A stretch of 64,000 bases of DNA from Pseudoleptotrichia goodfellowii. GTDB taxonomy: Bacteria; Fusobacteriota; Fusobacteriia; Fusobacteriales; Leptotrichiaceae. Positions 135 to 46,325 of this stretch are shown one piece after another (position 1 is the stretch's first letter; every line of letters begins with the position of its first letter). The notes under the pieces are model-generated. The model was not told where the DNA came from, did no database searches, and saw only the letters and a list, made by a program, of their open reading frames with translations. Location of the stretch: the NCBI RefSeq assembly GCF_007990505.1, contig NZ_AP019822.1:248001-312000 (forward strand), read 5' to 3'. The position numbers and the translations under genes are program-made.

Positions 135-884
135 GTGGCAGGGCACAGTAAATGGGCAAATATCCAACATAGAAAAGGAAGACAGGATAAACAGAGAGGA
201 AAGGCTTTTACAAGATTAGGAAAAGAATTGATGATTGCGGCAAGAATCGGCGGAGGGAATGTGGACTTTAATCCGAGATTAAGACTTGCCATAGATAAAG
301 CCAAAGCGGCGAATATGCCTAAGGATACTATTGAAAGAGCAATAAAAAAAGGAACAGGGGAACTTGAAGGAGTAGATTATATTGAAATAAGATATGAAGG
401 CTACGGACCCGGTGGAATTGCTTTTTTAGTGGATGTAGTTACCGATAATAAAAACAGATCGGCATCGACAGTAAGAATGAATTTTTCGAGAAATGACGGA
501 AACTTGGGAGAAACAGGTTCTGTTGCATTTATGTTTGACAGAAAAGGGATTTTTGAATTTGAAAAAGGAAAAGTTGATGAAGAAAAACTGATGGAAATCG
601 CACTCGAGGCGGGAGCTGAAGATGTAGCAGACAAAGAAAATTCTCTTGTTGTAATAACCGATCCTAATGATTTTGAAACAGTAAAAGAAACGTTGGAAAA
701 AGAGGGTCTAAAGACGGAAGAAGCTGAAATAACGATGTATCCTCAAAATGAGATAGATATTACAGATACGGAAACTGCAACTAAAATATTGAAGTTATAC
801 GACGATTTGGAAGATAATGAAGACGTTCAGGAAATATATGCCAACTTTAATATAAGTGATGAAGTTTTGAGTCGGATAGAGTAA
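135..884 (+). CDS. yebC: YebC/PmpR family DNA-binding protein
   Basis: This 249-residue protein belongs to the YebC/PmpR family, cytoplasmic proteins described as DNA-binding regulators and, more recently, as helping ribosomes through difficult (proline-rich) stretches. The N-terminus reads MAGHSKWANIQHRKGRQD, the family signature. It is followed by the conserved KELMIAARIGGGN block (about residues 30-43), and length is normal for the family. The start is GTG at 135, supported by GGAGG at 123-127, 7 bases upstream. Neighbours give no functional hint: an unknown gene lies before it and a long non-coding gap follows. The family call is firm. Its target in this organism cannot be told from sequence. 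Confidence 0.95.
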   Translation: MAGHSKWANIQHRKGRQDKQRGKAFTRLGKELMIAARIGGGNVDFNPRLRLAIDKAKAANMPKDTIERAIKKGTGELEGVDYIEIRYEGYGPGGIAFLVDVVTDNKNRSASTVRMNFSRNDGNLGETGSVAFMFDRKGIFEFEKGKVDEEKLMEIALEAGAEDVADKENSLVVITDPNDFETVKETLEKEGLKTEEAEITMYPQNEIDITDTETATKILKLYDDLEDNEDVQEIYANFNISDEVLSRIE

Positions 885-1223
885 GCGGAAATCATCTGCT
901 TTTTACTAAAAAAAGCAGCAAAAAATAACTCAACTCAAATTTTGCATACTTAAAAATGTCCGTTTGCTATGAAAACAAAAAAGATGTTTTCATAAACGCT
1001 CACTAGCACATTTTTTACGTTGTAAAATTTGAATGTTGAGAGAGAAATAAAATTCTGATATTGAAAAAGATAAAATCAAATAAAATTTCTAAAATGAAAA
1101 AAAATTTAAAAATTATTTTTGGTTAAAAAAGTTTTTCTTGATTTTCGATTTATAATATTGTATTTTAGTCATTTGATTGAAAGTAAAGTTAAAAAAATAT
1201 ATTAAAAAAAAAGATTTTAAATA
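885..1223. other. Non-coding gap between yebC and nagE
   Basis: The gap from yebC to nagE is about 430 bases and holds no credible gene. A short A/T-rich hairpin (CTGCTTTTT/AAAAAGCAG, 896-918) follows yebC but lacks a T run after it, so it is at best a weak terminator. Next come the 929-1040 palindrome, then about 180 bases of very AT-rich sequence leading into the nagE promoter. Confidence 0.6.
929..1040. repeat. 112-base composite palindrome in the yebC-nagE gap
   Basis: Nested complementary segments can be read here. CTCAAC (929-934) pairs with GTTGAG (1035-1040). CAAATTTT (936-943) pairs with AAAATTTG (1024-1031). AAAAATG (952-958) pairs with CATTTTT (1009-1015). CGTTT plus TATGAAAAC (961-976, with a GC bulge) pairs with GTTTTCATAAACG (986-998). 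The loop is 977-985. The arms fold into one long interrupted hairpin resembling a small non-autonomous repeat or a structured RNA rather than a simple terminator. I saw no second copy in this window. Confidence 0.6.
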
Positions 1224-2793: not shown

Positions 2794-2866
2794 CTCCTGT
2801 ATTGCCATAGCCAGTGTAATAGCTAAACTGTAGTGGCAGGAGTATGAGGGCAGCAACAGCCCTCAT
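2794..2866 (+). repeat. Structured intergenic repeat, copy A
   Basis: Copy A of a three-member family, 73 bases. An outer stem CTCCTG (2794-2799) / CAGGAG (2837-2842) encloses a variable region. It is followed directly by a strong hairpin ATGAGGGC (2844-2851) / GCCCTCAT (2859-2866) with an AGCAACA loop. It sits between nagE and nagB on the coding strand. It could act as a 3' end or processing signal, tuning nagE against nagB-nagA, but the run of T expected of a terminator is missing. Copies B and C are at 24925-24999 and 45657-45730. Confidence 0.7.
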
Positions 2867-2890: not shown

Positions 2891-3724
2891 ATGAGAGTAA
2901 TAATTTTGAAAGATAAGCAGGAAATAGGAAAATGGAGTGCTTATCAAATAGCAAAAAAAATATTGAAGTTTAATCCTACAGCAGAGAAGCCTTTTGTTTT
3001 AGGTTTGCCCACAGGATCGACTCCTTTAGGAACATATAAGGAACTTATAAATTTGTATAAAGAAGGGATTATTTCCTTTGAAAATGTTATAACTTTCAAT
3101 ATGGATGAGTATGTAGGACTTTCTCCTGAACATGAGCAAAGTTATCATTATTTTATGCACGAAAATTTATTCAAGCATATTGATATAAAACCTGAAAATG
3201 TTAATATACTTGACGGACTGGCAGAGGATTTGACGAAAGAATGTCAAAGATATGAAGACAAAATAAAAAGTGTCGGAGGAATAAAACTGTTTTTAGGAGG
3301 TATAGGAGAAGACGGACATATCGCTTTTAATGAGCCGGGATCATCTCTCGCTTCGAGAACGAGGGATAAAGAGCTGACTTATGATACTATTCTGGTAAAT
3401 TCGAGATTTTTTGATAATGATGTAAATAAAGTTCCTAAACTTGCGTTGACAGTGGGTGTGGGAACGTTAATGGATTCCGAAGAACTTATGATACTTGCTG
3501 ACGGATATAAAAAAGCAAGAGCCGTATATCATGGAATAGAAGGCGGAATAAATCATTTGTGGACAGTGTCGGCATTGCAGTTACACAGAAGAGCAATTCT
3601 TGTCATTGACGAGTCGGCAGCTTCGGATATAAAAGTAAAAACTTACAGATATTTTAAAGAAATAGAAGCTCATAATCTTGATTTGGAAAAATACAAAGAG
3701 GAAATAATAAAATTAAAAAAATAG
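2891..3724 (+). CDS. nagB: Glucosamine-6-phosphate deaminase
   Basis: This enzyme converts glucosamine 6-phosphate to fructose 6-phosphate and ammonia in the cytoplasm, feeding amino sugar into glycolysis. The catalytic residues fall at the same numbers as in the E. coli enzyme: D72 in FNMDEYVGL, and D141, H143 and E148 in [13 protein letters not shown]. The phosphate-binding [11 protein letters not shown] loop is at about residues 39-49. Length (277) is slightly above the roughly 266 of E. coli. The ATG is preceded by GGAGGG. It lies between nagE and nagA in one operon, with repeat copy A in its leader. Confidence 0.96.
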
Positions 3725-23998: not shown

Positions 23999-24886
23999 AT
24001 GAAAAGACAACAGGCAGATATGGGATTGCTTTTGGTAGGAATATTGTGGGGATTGGGATTTGTTTTTGTGAAAATCGGATTGAATGAAGGAATAGACCCG
24101 TTTTATCTTCTCTCAATAAGATTTTTGGGAGGCTTTGCCATACTTTATGCGATTTTCCGAAAAAAAATGAAGAAGATAACTCTGTATGACATGAAAGCCG
24201 GAATAATAATAGGAATGTTTCAGTTTTTCGGTTATACTTTTCAGACATACGGAATGCTGACCACAACTGCCAGTAATAATGCGTTTTTTACTGCGATAAA
24301 TGTAGTAATAGTGCCTTATTTTTTCTGGCTTATATACAGAGAAAGACCTAACAGAAGTGCTTTTATCGCTTCGGTTTTATGTGTAGCGGGAATAGGAATC
24401 ATAAGTTTTGACAAAGATATGCATTTAACAAGTTTAAATAAAGGAGATATTTTAACTATAATCTGTGCGGTGTTTTTTGCGGCTCAGGTTGCATCAACAG
24501 GATATTACAGTGAAAGAGTCCATACACTGAACCTTGTTTTCATTCAGATGGTTACAGGAGGAGTGCTGTTTTTAGGAAACTTGGTGATTTTTTCCGGAGT
24601 AAGTGCAATAAAACCTTTACATGGAATGGCATTAATTGCTATACTTTACTTAACGATATTTTCAACAGCGATTCCGTTTTTGCTCCAGACATATTTTCAA
24701 AAATGGACTACTTCTACAAGGGCATCAATAATAATGACTACAGAATCACTGTTTGCTCCGTTATTTGCCTATTTTCTTTTAGGTGAAGTGCTTACTTTGA
24801 AAGTAATATTCGGAGCAGTATTAATACTTTCTTCGGTAGTTGTATCGGAGATTAAATTCGGAAAAAATGAAGTGGAAAAAGGATAA
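23999..24886 (+). CDS. DMT-superfamily (EamA) transporter
   Basis: This inner-membrane protein of 295 residues has about ten hydrophobic helices arranged as two EamA repeats (about 5-140 and 150-290). GILWGLGFVFVKIGL is the first-repeat signature, and the second repeat ends with FAYFLLGEVLTLKVIFGAVLI. Relatives export or import small metabolites such as amino acids and nucleotide precursors, and the substrate cannot be inferred. It lies 69 bases after recG with a good ribosome site (AAAGGAG). Repeat copy B and proS follow. A shadow frame on the other strand at the 5' end is not a gene. Confidence 0.85.
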   Translation: MKRQQADMGLLLVGILWGLGFVFVKIGLNEGIDPFYLLSIRFLGGFAILYAIFRKKMKKITLYDMKAGIIIGMFQFFGYTFQTYGMLTTTASNNAFFTAINVVIVPYFFWLIYRERPNRSAFIASVLCVAGIGIISFDKDMHLTSLNKGDILTIICAVFFAAQVASTGYYSERVHTLNLVFIQMVTGGVLFLGNLVIFSGVSAIKPLHGMALIAILYLTIFSTAIPFLLQTYFQKWTTSTRASIIMTTESLFAPLFAYFLLGEVLTLKVIFGAVLILSSVVVSEIKFGKNEVEKG

Positions 24887-24924
24887 AAATAAAATAAAGA
24901 AAGGAGAGTACTGTTTAAAAATAT

Positions 24925-24999
24925 TCCCGTATTTTCGGAGTCGACGGAGAAGCGGAGAACTTGGGTAGCGGGAGTATGAGGGTAGCAATGAGCCCTCAT
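24925..24999 (+). repeat. Structured intergenic repeat, copy B
   Basis: Copy B, 75 bases. The outer stem is TCCCG (24925-24929) / CGGGA (24969-24973). It differs from copy A (CTCCTG/CAGGAG) but still pairs, so the change is compensatory. The hairpin ATGAGGGT (24976-24983) / GCCCTCAT (24992-24999) carries the shared AGCAA loop core. It sits between the transporter gene and proS on their coding strand. Confidence 0.7.
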
Positions 25000-25015: not shown

Positions 25016-26728
25016 ATGAGATTATCAAAAGCATTTTTAAAAACATATAAGGAGGCTCCTAAAGAAGCCGAAATAATAAGTCATCAGCTTATGTTAAGAG
25101 CTTCGATGATAAAGCAACTGACAAGAGGAGTTTACAGCTATTTGCCTTTGGGCTATAAAGTATTGAGAAAAATAGAAAATATTGTAAGAGAAGAAATGAA
25201 CAGAGCAAATGCACAGGAAATACATATGCCTGTATTGCAACCGGCTTCTTTGTGGGAAGAGTCGGGGAGATGGTTTGCTTACGGACCTGAATTGATGAGA
25301 TTGAAAGACAGAAATGAAAGAGAATTTGCTTTAGGGCCTACTCATGAAGAAGTTGTAACGGATATAGTGAGAAATATGGTGAGTTCGTATAAAGATTTGT
25401 CTTTTAATCTTTATCAGATACAGACAAAATTCAGAGATGAAATGAGACCGAGATTCGGACTTATGAGAGGAAGAGAGTTTCTGATGAAAGATGCTTACAG
25501 TTTTCATATTGATCAGAAATCTCTCGATGAAGAATACCTTAATATGAAATCTGCCTATGAAAGAATATTTAAAAGATGTGGGCTTAATTTCAGGGCGGTA
25601 GAAGCCGATTCAGGGTCTATAGGAGGAGATTCTTCTCACGAATTTATGGTGCTTGCAGATAGCGGAGAAGACGATATTTTATACAGTGACGTTTCAGGAT
25701 ATGCTGCAAATATTGAAAAAGCATCGAGTATAATAGAATTAGTTGAAAGTACTGAAGAAAAAAAAGAAAAGGAACTGATAGAAACTCCCAATGCCAAGAC
25801 GATAGAAGGACTGGCTGAGTTTTTGAATATACCTAAGGAAAAAACGGTAAAAGCTGTGCTGATGAAAGAAGTATTGCCTGACAGACAAAATTTCGTTTTA
25901 GGGCTTATAAGAGGAGACTTGGATATTAATCCGATTAAGTTGAAAAATGCTATGGGAGCTTCGATGGAGCTTGAAATGATGACCGAAGAGGACTGCGAAA
26001 AACTTGGGATTACTACAGGATATGTAGGATCTTTTGAGAAAAATGATAAATTGAAAGTCATTATGGACGAAACTGTAAAATATATGAGAAACTTTGTAGT
26101 AGGCGGAAATAAAAAAGGATACCATTATATAAATGTTAATCTTGAAGACTTGGCTTATGATTTAGTAGCAGATATAAGAGAAGCAAGAGCGGGAGATGGA
26201 TCTCCTGACGGAAAAGGGACGCTAAAAGTCGCAAGAGGAATAGAAGTGGGACATATATTTAAACTGGGAGATAAATATTCCAAAGCACTCAATGCCACAG
26301 TTCTTGATGAAAACGGGAAACAACAGATAATAGCTATGGGATGTTACGGAATAGGAATTTCAAGAGTAATGGCTGCCGCTATAGAACAGAATCATGACGA
26401 ATTCGGTATAATATGGCCGAAAAATATAGCACCTTATTTAGTTGATGTAATAATCGCCAATATAAAAGATGAAACACAGTTTTCGTTGGGAGAAAAACTT
26501 TATAAGGAATTATGCGATAATGGAATTGAAACAGTGCTTGATGACAGAAACGAAAGAGCCGGATTTAAGTTTAAAGATGCCGATCTTATAGGTATTCCGT
26601 TAAAAATAGTTGTAGGAAAAGGTGCAGCTGAGGGAAAAGTCGAGATTAAAGACAGAAGAACGGGAGAAAGTCGGGAAGTAAAAGCCGAAGAAGTAACTGA
26701 TTTTGTAAGAAGATTCATAGAAGAATAA
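25016..26728 (+). CDS. proS: Proline-tRNA ligase (bacterial type)
   Basis: This class II aminoacyl-tRNA synthetase of 570 residues charges tRNA-Pro. The N-terminal catalytic part has the class II motif 2 region (TKFRDEMRPRFGLMRGREFLMKD is split by the motif loop), followed by the inserted editing domain (about 225-385). The core then resumes with GCYGIGISRVMAAAIEQ (motif 3), and an anticodon-binding domain closes the protein. This is the long bacterial form, able to clear Ala-tRNA-Pro. The start is ATG 25016, which lacks a clear ribosome site; the only strong AAGGAG nearby is at 24900-24905, upstream of repeat copy B. I looked for a T-box leader and did not find one. Confidence 0.95.
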   Translation: MRLSKAFLKTYKEAPKEAEIISHQLMLRASMIKQLTRGVYSYLPLGYKVLRKIENIVREEMNRANAQEIHMPVLQPASLWEESGRWFAYGPELMRLKDRNEREFALGPTHEEVVTDIVRNMVSSYKDLSFNLYQIQTKFRDEMRPRFGLMRGREFLMKDAYSFHIDQKSLDEEYLNMKSAYERIFKRCGLNFRAVEADSGSIGGDSSHEFMVLADSGEDDILYSDVSGYAANIEKASSIIELVESTEEKKEKELIETPNAKTIEGLAEFLNIPKEKTVKAVLMKEVLPDRQNFVLGLIRGDLDINPIKLKNAMGASMELEMMTEEDCEKLGITTGYVGSFEKNDKLKVIMDETVKYMRNFVVGGNKKGYHYINVNLEDLAYDLVADIREARAGDGSPDGKGTLKVARGIEVGHIFKLGDKYSKALNATVLDENGKQQIIAMGCYGIGISRVMAAAIEQNHDEFGIIWPKNIAPYLVDVIIANIKDETQFSLGEKLYKELCDNGIETVLDDRNERAGFKFKDADLIGIPLKIVVGKGAAEGKVEIKDRRTGESREVKAEEVTDFVRRFIEE

Positions 26729-44407: not shown

Positions 44408-45643
44408 ATGAAAAATTTAGATTTAAAACTGGATAAGTATGCACAGGTAATAGTAAAAATAGGAGCAAATGTGCAGCCGGGACAAAGAGTATGGATAAAT
44501 TGTACAACTGATTCGTTGCCTTTGGTGTATAAAGTGACAGAAGCTTCATATAAAGCAGGAGCAAGTGATGTTCACGTAAAATTATCCGATGATAAATTGA
44601 CACGTATGCACGCTGAATATCAACCTACAGAAGTATATTCACATGTACCTCAATGGTTAGTAGACGAGAGAAATGAATATTTAGATAACAATGTAGTATT
44701 TATACATATTTTAAGCAGTTCTCCCAATCTTCTTTCGGGAGTAGATCCGAAAAAACTCGGAGCATATACTAAAAATATGGGAGAAGCTTTTAAATACTAT
44801 CGTTCCCGTGTGATGACAGATGCAAATTCATGGACATTGGCAAGCTATCCTTCGGCAGACTGGGCAAAACTTGTATTTCCTGAAGAAAAAGATTCTGAAA
44901 AAGCTCAGGAAAAACTGTTGGATGCTATTTTGAAAACAGTAAGAGTAGACGGAGAAGATCCTGTAAAAGCTTGGGAAGAACACCATAAAATACTTTCGGA
45001 AAAGGCTGATTATTTGAATAAAAAAGCTTTCTCGGCTTTGCATTATACTGCACCGGGAACAGATTTAACAGTAGGATTGCCTAAAAATCATGTATGGATT
45101 GCAGCAGGAAGCAAAAATCTCAAAGGAGATCATTTTATGCCGAATATGCCTACAGAAGAAGTGTTTACAGCGGCAGATAAATACAGAATAGACGGATACG
45201 TTTCCAATAAAAAGCCGTTGTCTTATCAGGGAAATATAATTGATAATTTTAAATTGACTTTTAAAGACGGAAAAGTAGTTGATTTTCAGGCTGAAACAGG
45301 ATACGATATTTTGAAGCAGCTTCTTGATACTGATGAAGGAGCAAAAAGTATCGGAGAAGTAGCTTTGGTCCCTCATGATTCACCGATTTCCAATTCGGGA
45401 CTTTTGTATTATCAGACATTATTTGATGAAAATGCTTCAAATCATTTGGCATTGGGGGCAGCTTATCCTACAAATGTTAAAGGTGGAAAAGATATGAGCG
45501 AAGAAGAACTTGAAAAAGCTCATTTGAATCAGTCTATTACGCATGTAGACTTTATGATAGGAGATGCCGAAATGGATATTGACGGTATTAATGAAGACGG
45601 AACAAGAGAGCCTGTATTCAGAAAAGGAAACTGGGCATTTTAA
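44408..45643 (+). CDS. Aminopeptidase, peptidase family M29 (PepS/AmpS-like)
   Basis: This cytoplasmic metallo-aminopeptidase of 411 residues removes N-terminal residues from peptides. The zinc ligands usual in the family are recognisable in the C-terminal half: glutamates in MPTEEVFT and GEVALVPHDSPI, then histidines in ASNHLALGAAYP and THVDFMIGD, the last also giving an aspartate. Length is standard. It has its own promoter and ends in the convergent gap holding repeat copy C. The ribosome site is AAAAGGAG. It is unrelated to the sugar genes upstream. Confidence 0.92.
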   Translation: MKNLDLKLDKYAQVIVKIGANVQPGQRVWINCTTDSLPLVYKVTEASYKAGASDVHVKLSDDKLTRMHAEYQPTEVYSHVPQWLVDERNEYLDNNVVFIHILSSSPNLLSGVDPKKLGAYTKNMGEAFKYYRSRVMTDANSWTLASYPSADWAKLVFPEEKDSEKAQEKLLDAILKTVRVDGEDPVKAWEEHHKILSEKADYLNKKAFSALHYTAPGTDLTVGLPKNHVWIAAGSKNLKGDHFMPNMPTEEVFTAADKYRIDGYVSNKKPLSYQGNIIDNFKLTFKDGKVVDFQAETGYDILKQLLDTDEGAKSIGEVALVPHDSPISNSGLLYYQTLFDENASNHLALGAAYPTNVKGGKDMSEEELEKAHLNQSITHVDFMIGDAEMDIDGINEDGTREPVFRKGNWAF

Positions 45644-45656
45644 GAAAATGAAATAA

Positions 45657-45730
45657 ATGAGGGCTTATTGCTGCCCTCATACACTTGTTAACCGCCACTT
45701 TGTCGACTTTGTCGATTTCGGTAATGCGGA
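45657..45730 (-). repeat. Structured intergenic repeat, copy C
   Basis: Copy C, 74 bases, on the minus strand. The outer stem is CCGC (45729-45726) / GCGG (45695-45692). The hairpin ATGAGGGC/GCCCTCAT (45680-45673 with 45664-45657) has the AGCAA loop core. It lies between the convergent aminopeptidase and acetyltransferase genes, downstream of the latter in its own orientation. The final hairpin could serve as a terminator for both. Confidence 0.7.
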
Positions 45731-45738
45731 TAAAATTT

Positions 45739-46284
45739 TTAGAAAAACTTATTTTTATTTATAAAATTTAAACGATATAAACGAAATGTAACCTTAATAT
45801 CTTTAGGTTGCCACTGTTCTTCATAGGAATATTGATAACTCATTCCTAATTTTTTCATGACTTCTCCGCTACGGGGATTGTTGATGTCATGAGTAGCTGT
45901 AATGTAAGGTATTCCGTCTTTTTTCAGTTGTTCAATAACAGCTTTACAAGCTTCCGTTACGATTCCTTTATTCCAAAACTCTTTACGCAGTCCGTAACCT
46001 AAATCATAATTACTGTCCATATTTACATTTATATATCCTATAGGAATGTTATCGGTTTTTAAACAAATTGCATAATTATAGCCTAAAGGATTTTTATAAT
46101 TTTTTTCATATCTTTCAGCAAAAAACATTTCCGCTTCTTTTATAGATTTTAAAGAAAACCACGGTAAAAAAGTATTGACTTCTTCATCACTGTAAATTTC
46201 AAATATAGATTTTAAGTCATTTTTTGTAAATTTTCTTAATATCAGACGTTCTGTTTCTAAATTCGGAGTATTCTTTAAGTTCAT
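45739..46284 (-). CDS. GNAT-family N-acetyltransferase (RimJ/RimL type)
   Basis: This 181-residue acetyl-CoA-dependent transferase has LETERLILRKFTKNDLKSIFEIYSD split across the first 40 residues, as in RimJ/RimL enzymes. YLG-type core strands follow (IPIGYINV), then DLGYGLRKEFWNKGIVTEAC, the acetyl-CoA loop, and NPRSGEVMKKLGM. Targets may be a ribosomal protein terminus or a small molecule. The frame extends to 46311, but ATG 46284 has AAAGGAG 7 bases upstream. Repeat copy C lies just past its stop. Confidence 0.88.
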   Translation of the reverse strand: MNLKNTPNLETERLILRKFTKNDLKSIFEIYSDEEVNTFLPWFSLKSIKEAEMFFAERYEKNYKNPLGYNYAICLKTDNIPIGYINVNMDSNYDLGYGLRKEFWNKGIVTEACKAVIEQLKKDGIPYITATHDINNPRSGEVMKKLGMSYQYSYEEQWQPKDIKVTFRLYRLNFINKNKFF

Positions 46285-46325
46285 TTTTTGCTCCTTTGAA
46301 TTGTTCCGCAATCAGTTGTAATTTA

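Follow-up and report, generated by a model that had tools for sequence, protein, structure and literature searches.

REP-like intergenic repeats of Pseudoleptotrichia goodfellowii join interchangeable 5' hairpins to a constant 3' hairpin

Introduction

Three short, foldable sequences lie between genes in a 64-kb window (the whole stretch of DNA analysed here, 64,000 nucleotides) of the Pseudoleptotrichia goodfellowii genome. What are they, and how did they come to be there? An earlier note on this DNA had described them as members of a new family of repeats that fold and lie between genes, each with a variable middle, outer arms that differ in sequence and yet can pair, and a constant hairpin at the 3' end. 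It had taken the retained pairing to suggest selection on RNA or hairpin structure.

Results

All three elements are present in the window. Copy A (2794-2866, + strand, 73 nt) has a PTS EIIC/EIIB gene (1265-2752) on its left and a nagB-like gene (2891-3724) on its right. Its 5' hairpin (2794-2842), with the outer stem CTCCTG/CAGGAG, is followed by the constant 3' hairpin, hereafter P3, at 2844-2866; an intrinsic terminator was looked for at this copy and not found. Copy B (24925-24999, + strand, 75 nt; P3 at 24976-24999) separates an EamA-transporter gene (23999-24886) from proS (25016-26728). Copy C (45730-45657, - strand, 74 nt; P3 at 45657-45680) occupies the convergent spacer between a GNAT acetyltransferase gene (45739-46311, - strand) and an M29 peptidase gene (44408-45643, + strand), with P3 13 nt from the stop codon of the latter. 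In all three copies P3 has the form previously described.

A pattern for the 3' hairpin matched copies B and C within the window, where shuffles led us to expect 0.00 matches; copy A was missed solely through a loop one base shorter. The same pattern, run over the genome's single contig of 2,290,729 bases, gave 38 matches compared to 0 for a reversed control, which is far beyond chance. With a covariance model built from 30 copies, whose information is mostly sequence, the number of matches rose to 76 (E<=0.1) or 69 (E<=0.001), giving about 70 elements dispersed over both strands. The scan proposed in the earlier note has therefore yielded far more than three copies, and the claim of a new family with covarying stems stands: the arms pair with compensatory changes, as set out below, and no Rfam match was found. 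Using Rfam 15, nothing matched the element either at the gathering threshold over the 64-kb window or at E<=5 at two further loci (L013 and L092).

Outside this genome, the covariance model found 65 matches in one congener (G001), 27 in another (G002) and 4 in a member of another genus of the family (G009), with no match in the rest of the 40 relatives apart from single marginal hits in three g3 genomes; these hits (L064-L066) were set aside as having little in common beyond the loop sequence. The 3' hairpin pattern occurred in 4 of 98 Fusobacteriota genomes (three of one genus and one of another) and was lacking in the other 94. Collections of genome contigs, viral contigs and plasmids, which may omit records near this genome, gave no matches to the element pattern, and a literature search on repeats in Leptotrichia returned nothing. 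The family is apparently undescribed and is confined almost entirely to one genus. Four G001 contigs (C82, C156, C197 and C133) carry copies within ~150 bases of their ends, which might mean that the repeat interrupts short-read assembly.

The element is ~65-90 nt long and has no gene of its own. Its variable 5' hairpin (P1-ATT-P2-P1') is joined by a linker near TAGCNGGAGT to P3, in which the arms ATGAGGGC and GCCCTCAT form an 8-bp stem around an 8-nt loop; over the copies, P3 ranges from 22 to 27 nt with a stem of 8-9 bp and a loop usually of 8 nt. For the commonest subfamily the consensus reads CCCGC ATT TTCGGAGTCGACGAAGTCGCGTAGAAC GCGGG TAGCGGGAGT ATGAGGGC GGCAATGA GCCCTCAT, where P1 is CCCGC/GCGGG. 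P2 is TTC/GAA in most copies of this genome, ACC/GGT in some and GTC/GAC in congeners. As P3 is nearly self-complementary, its hairpin forms in the transcript of either strand.

Compensatory changes support the P1, P2 and P3 stems. Among 97 distinct copies, 86% of stem cells were paired (80% when shuffled), two-sided changes occurred in 13 of the 16 stem pairs, and double-changed cells numbered 99 compared to 39 in shuffles, with all slid registers far worse; the alignment was fitted to a model, and the absolute values are accordingly biased upward. An alternative register, in which the left arm pairs with a second GCGGG, was supported too, with fewer double changes (77 cells). The outer arms do pair as previously proposed, but the earlier description mixed the two registers: in copies A and B the left arm was matched to a second GCGGGAG-type arm, and in copy C to the first GCGG. 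Both are compensated across the family, the first GCGG register more strongly. Likewise, the middle is indeed variable, yet it is largely a P1/P2 hairpin of its own with covariation. Such covariation would equally be expected of a hairpin in single-stranded DNA, and is therefore not proof of selection at the RNA level.

The 5' half of the element is exchangeable. In congeners it reads TCGGC-ATT-CAAAATTTT...AAAATTTTG-TA-GCCGA or consists of other hairpin sequences, and in this genome it can be replaced by a second, longer repeat (AAAAATGTGTTAGTGAGCG...CATTTTTGAGTATG); whichever of these 5' parts is present, a TAGCNGGAGT-like linker comes next, and then P3. RNA folding of nine single copies returned the two-hairpin picture, the same in different subfamilies, with z from -2.4 to -4.9. 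When folded as DNA, copy B was no better than chance (z = -1.0) and the other eight ranged from -2.7 to -7.0.

The second, longer structured repeat (AAAAATGTGTTAGTGAGCG...CATTTTTGAGTATGTAAAATTTG) also occurs in the window, at ~870-1032 (- strand), and was seen at 16 places in the stretches of this genome that were analysed, ending either in P3 or in a different TACTTTTTT/AAAAAAGTA hairpin. Four copies in this genome (1659838, 1631101, 188119 and 1704041) lack the 3' hairpin and keep only the outer stem CCCG.../...CGGG, followed in three of the four by a T-rich tail; these copies look like intrinsic terminators.

To describe placement, we used stretches around the copies and a longest-ORF rule, under which stops are reliable and starts approximate. 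The copies are mostly intergenic, lying for the most part behind stop codons and in convergent or same-direction spacers, and rarely in divergent promoter regions: 70 copies comprised 30 +E+, 20 -E-, 15 convergent and 2 divergent cases, with 3 undetermined. A position downstream of a gene on the element's own strand had been pointed out for A, B and C and is correct for them, but it is no general rule, holding for 48 of 70 copies. The stronger rule concerns P3, which tends to sit just past the stop codon of a gene on the opposite strand. In 34 cases the gene beyond P3 runs toward the element; in 19 of them its stop codon is 0-15 nt from the end of P3, compared to 7.2 expected from a uniform distribution over the spacer. 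This bias was replicated in the copies of G001, G002 and G009 (9/15 versus 2.1 expected). At the 5' end, the stop of a same-strand gene fell within 15 nt in only 3 of 29 cases (6.6 expected). Such a bias could mirror the insertion sites that are tolerated rather than a function.

Copy B has an unusual position, sitting between AAAGGAG (24900-24906, + strand), the likely proS Shine-Dalgarno sequence, and the proS ATG at 25016, 109 nt further on. Among the other genera of the family that were examined, most have the Shine-Dalgarno-like sequence of proS 5-11 nt from the ATG; two of the genomes compared lacked a canonical site, and in some others the start was not located. The gap is expanded in all three species of the genus, each by a different hairpin-forming insertion: copy B here (109 nt), an 11-bp hairpin in G002 (47 nt; contig C12) and a long hairpin in G001 (165 nt; contig C10). 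The gap minus its folded part comes to ~11-13 nt. When folded, the leader in this genome closes around copy B (z = -4.0), and copies at 104618 and 1084748 lie in similar Shine-Dalgarno-to-ATG gaps. That a ribosome might bridge the folded element is only one reading of these gaps, since the G002 Shine-Dalgarno sequence may instead serve a 12-codon leader frame. Elsewhere, AAAGGAG, a short perfect hairpin and ATG follow one another in several genes (G002:C1:260281, C2:126251 and C4:60368; G009:C1:159915). Hairpins in Shine-Dalgarno-AUG gaps showed a modest excess over shuffled spacers (10 versus 4 and 7 versus 2), as if they were recurrent in the family.

We next compared syntenic sites. Nineteen copies, three weak matches among them, had both flanks aligning to one G002 stretch, and the element was missing from 18 of these 19 spacers. 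The sole exception is copy A: G001 and G002 both carry it between the corresponding genes, its 5' hairpin there being a different one (e.g. CCTGC/GCAGG). Neither congener has copy B in its proS leader, and copy C survives in G001 as a relic, little more than P3. Judged from these alignments, the near-identical copies look lineage-specific and are probably recent, and A and C are older. Identity to the congener is only ~80%, and the divergence of its intergenic DNA leaves no empty site resolved to the base; lineage-specific copies are therefore not proof of transposition.

These data bear on the implication of the earlier note, namely that selection on RNA structure has multiplied a cis-acting RNA (a regulatory leader, mRNA stabiliser or terminator). 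Stem covariation and the position behind stop codons would agree with it, as would the conservation of copy A upstream of nagB in three species, which fits a functional RNA element and counts against a mobile repeat. Most copies are, however, missing at the syntenic sites of a congener, the neighbouring genes have no common function, both orientations are found (+E+ 30, -E- 20) and Rfam has no counterpart. With most copies looking like lineage-specific insertions, selection on RNA structure was not borne out, and we regard this explanation as unlikely.

What, then, might have moved the repeat? No target-site duplication was detected (flank identity 2.59 versus 2.65 in shuffled pairs), nor did mutual complementarity of the flanks exceed that of shuffled partners. 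The bases after P3 show an RAA bias, with A at +3 in 88% and a purine at +1 in 79%. Searches of this genome gave no Y1_Tnp (PF01797) and no RVT_1, and for the TnpB zinc ribbon only one broken, sub-threshold match, with no intact TnpB. Y1 transposase, reverse transcriptase and TnpB, being absent, broken or unlinked here, were rejected as mobilisers. Among relatives, G001 has no Y1_Tnp and G002 one disrupted copy.

A true REP/RAYT system, in which an IS200-type tyrosine transposase (RAYT) moved the repeat and has since been lost from the genome, would account for a G-rich, guide-like tag (GGAG) before a short palindrome and for many intergenic copies without target duplication. It seems improbable, given the distribution of Y1_Tnp in this genome, G001 and G002, the nine Y1_Tnp copies of a further relative (G004) that nevertheless has no comparable repeat set, and the absence of the REP-defining GT(A/G)G tag adjacent to the palindrome.

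The repeat also marks the 5' borders of orphan hemagglutinin-type toxin modules. Tandem modules at G000:C1:2108500-2132000 (2.108-2.132 Mb) and 724344-730596 (0.724-0.731 Mb) (L091 and L092) have a common N-terminal part (MNFPNGSRAYVDNQTTFILGEG...) and C-ends that vary, with small partner genes after each of them. Pfam gave no match for the modules proper, and a filamentous hemagglutinin repeat (PF13332) was found in one long relative; by context they are probably of the orphan CdiA-CT/immunity type (compare PMC3150448). Seven module ORFs start at the 3' end of an element, whose last bases AT together with G make the first ATG. Two further copies adjoin the parent sequence at other points, and some module ORFs in G002 read through the hairpin (MRAAMSPHG...).

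Might the element then be an attC-like recombination site, with the orphan toxin/immunity-type modules as its cassettes? Many module ORFs of this genome begin right at the element's 3' end, other copies adjoin the same parent gene at different points and several congener modules start at an element too, as such a cassette system would have it. Against this, most copies are single and lie between unrelated genes, the integron attC core sites RYYYAAC/GTTRRRY are absent from the consensus, and tandem duplication of a founding module accounts for much of the array, making a cassette system very unlikely. Alternatively, P3 alone might be what a mobilising enzyme recognises, one from a class that is not known to move palindromic repeats, any neighbouring hairpin being taken up as the 5' half and other segments, such as the orphan toxin modules, becoming attached 3'. 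We consider such a one-hairpin system for shuffling single-stranded DNA rather doubtful.

Discussion

We think the element is probably a REP-like, non-autonomous, palindromic mobile repeat that depends on an enzyme acting in trans and is able to affect mRNA 3' ends. A DNA-processing enzyme would recognise the folded single strand and join the 3' hairpin end to A-rich sites, leaving RAA directly after the element and no target duplication; transposition would thus proceed as single-stranded DNA. Once inserted within 15 nt of a stop codon, P3 could stall the terminating ribosome, as has been reported for E. coli REPs at such distances (PMC12306157), or could alternatively protect the mRNA 3' end.

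With its constant 3' hairpin, exchangeable 5' hairpins and many near-identical copies, this family makes the mover of transposase-less palindromic repeats testable by strain comparison. The association with stop codons and toxin-module borders in turn suggests effects on gene expression and on the toxin repertoire.

How does the element compare with known repeats? A modular build of constant and exchangeable hairpin-forming parts is also seen in the BOX elements of pneumococcus, with which we know of no sequence relation. Closest in many respects are the GTAG-tagged, RAYT-mobilised REPs (PMC3733652, PMC3686654), with which the element shares a short palindrome, an unpaired G-rich 5' tag, many intergenic copies, a lack of target duplication and a frequent position close behind stop codons; P3, in ~70 copies, agrees with the description of a REP as a 20-40 bp palindrome in many intergenic copies. 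REPs of this type are, however, defined by a 5'-terminal GT(A/G)G tetranucleotide directly beside the palindrome (PMC3686654), whereas here a GGAGT-type sequence precedes P3 and (N)TAG stands ~7 nt further upstream. The element also differs by its additional 5' hairpin, which covaries and whose sequence is exchangeable, and this genome has no RAYT, the cognate Y1 tyrosine transposase.

CGTC-tagged palindromic repeats (PMC3733652) likewise have apparently no dedicated transposase, but they carry CGTC at one end, which is not found beside P3, and form a single hairpin with a stem of 8-9 bp and a loop of 4-5 nt; the element has two hairpins, a loop usually of 8 nt, and a different stem and tail. 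MITEs such as Correia/NEMIS, RUP and ERIC (PMC2229807) are similarly small, non-autonomous, intergenic and foldable in transcripts. Unlike them, the element has no terminal inverted repeats, its ends CCCGC and CCCTCAT not being complementary, and no detected target duplication. As the defining features of REPs, CGTC repeats and MITEs are each lacking, the element is a REP-like variant rather than a member of any of these groups. To conclude, this is a real family of REP-like kind with an unusual modular plan, for which no mobiliser was found. Fusobacteria are not mentioned in two surveys of REPs (PMC3733652, PMC12306157), and the element therefore appears to be the first such family for the phylum.
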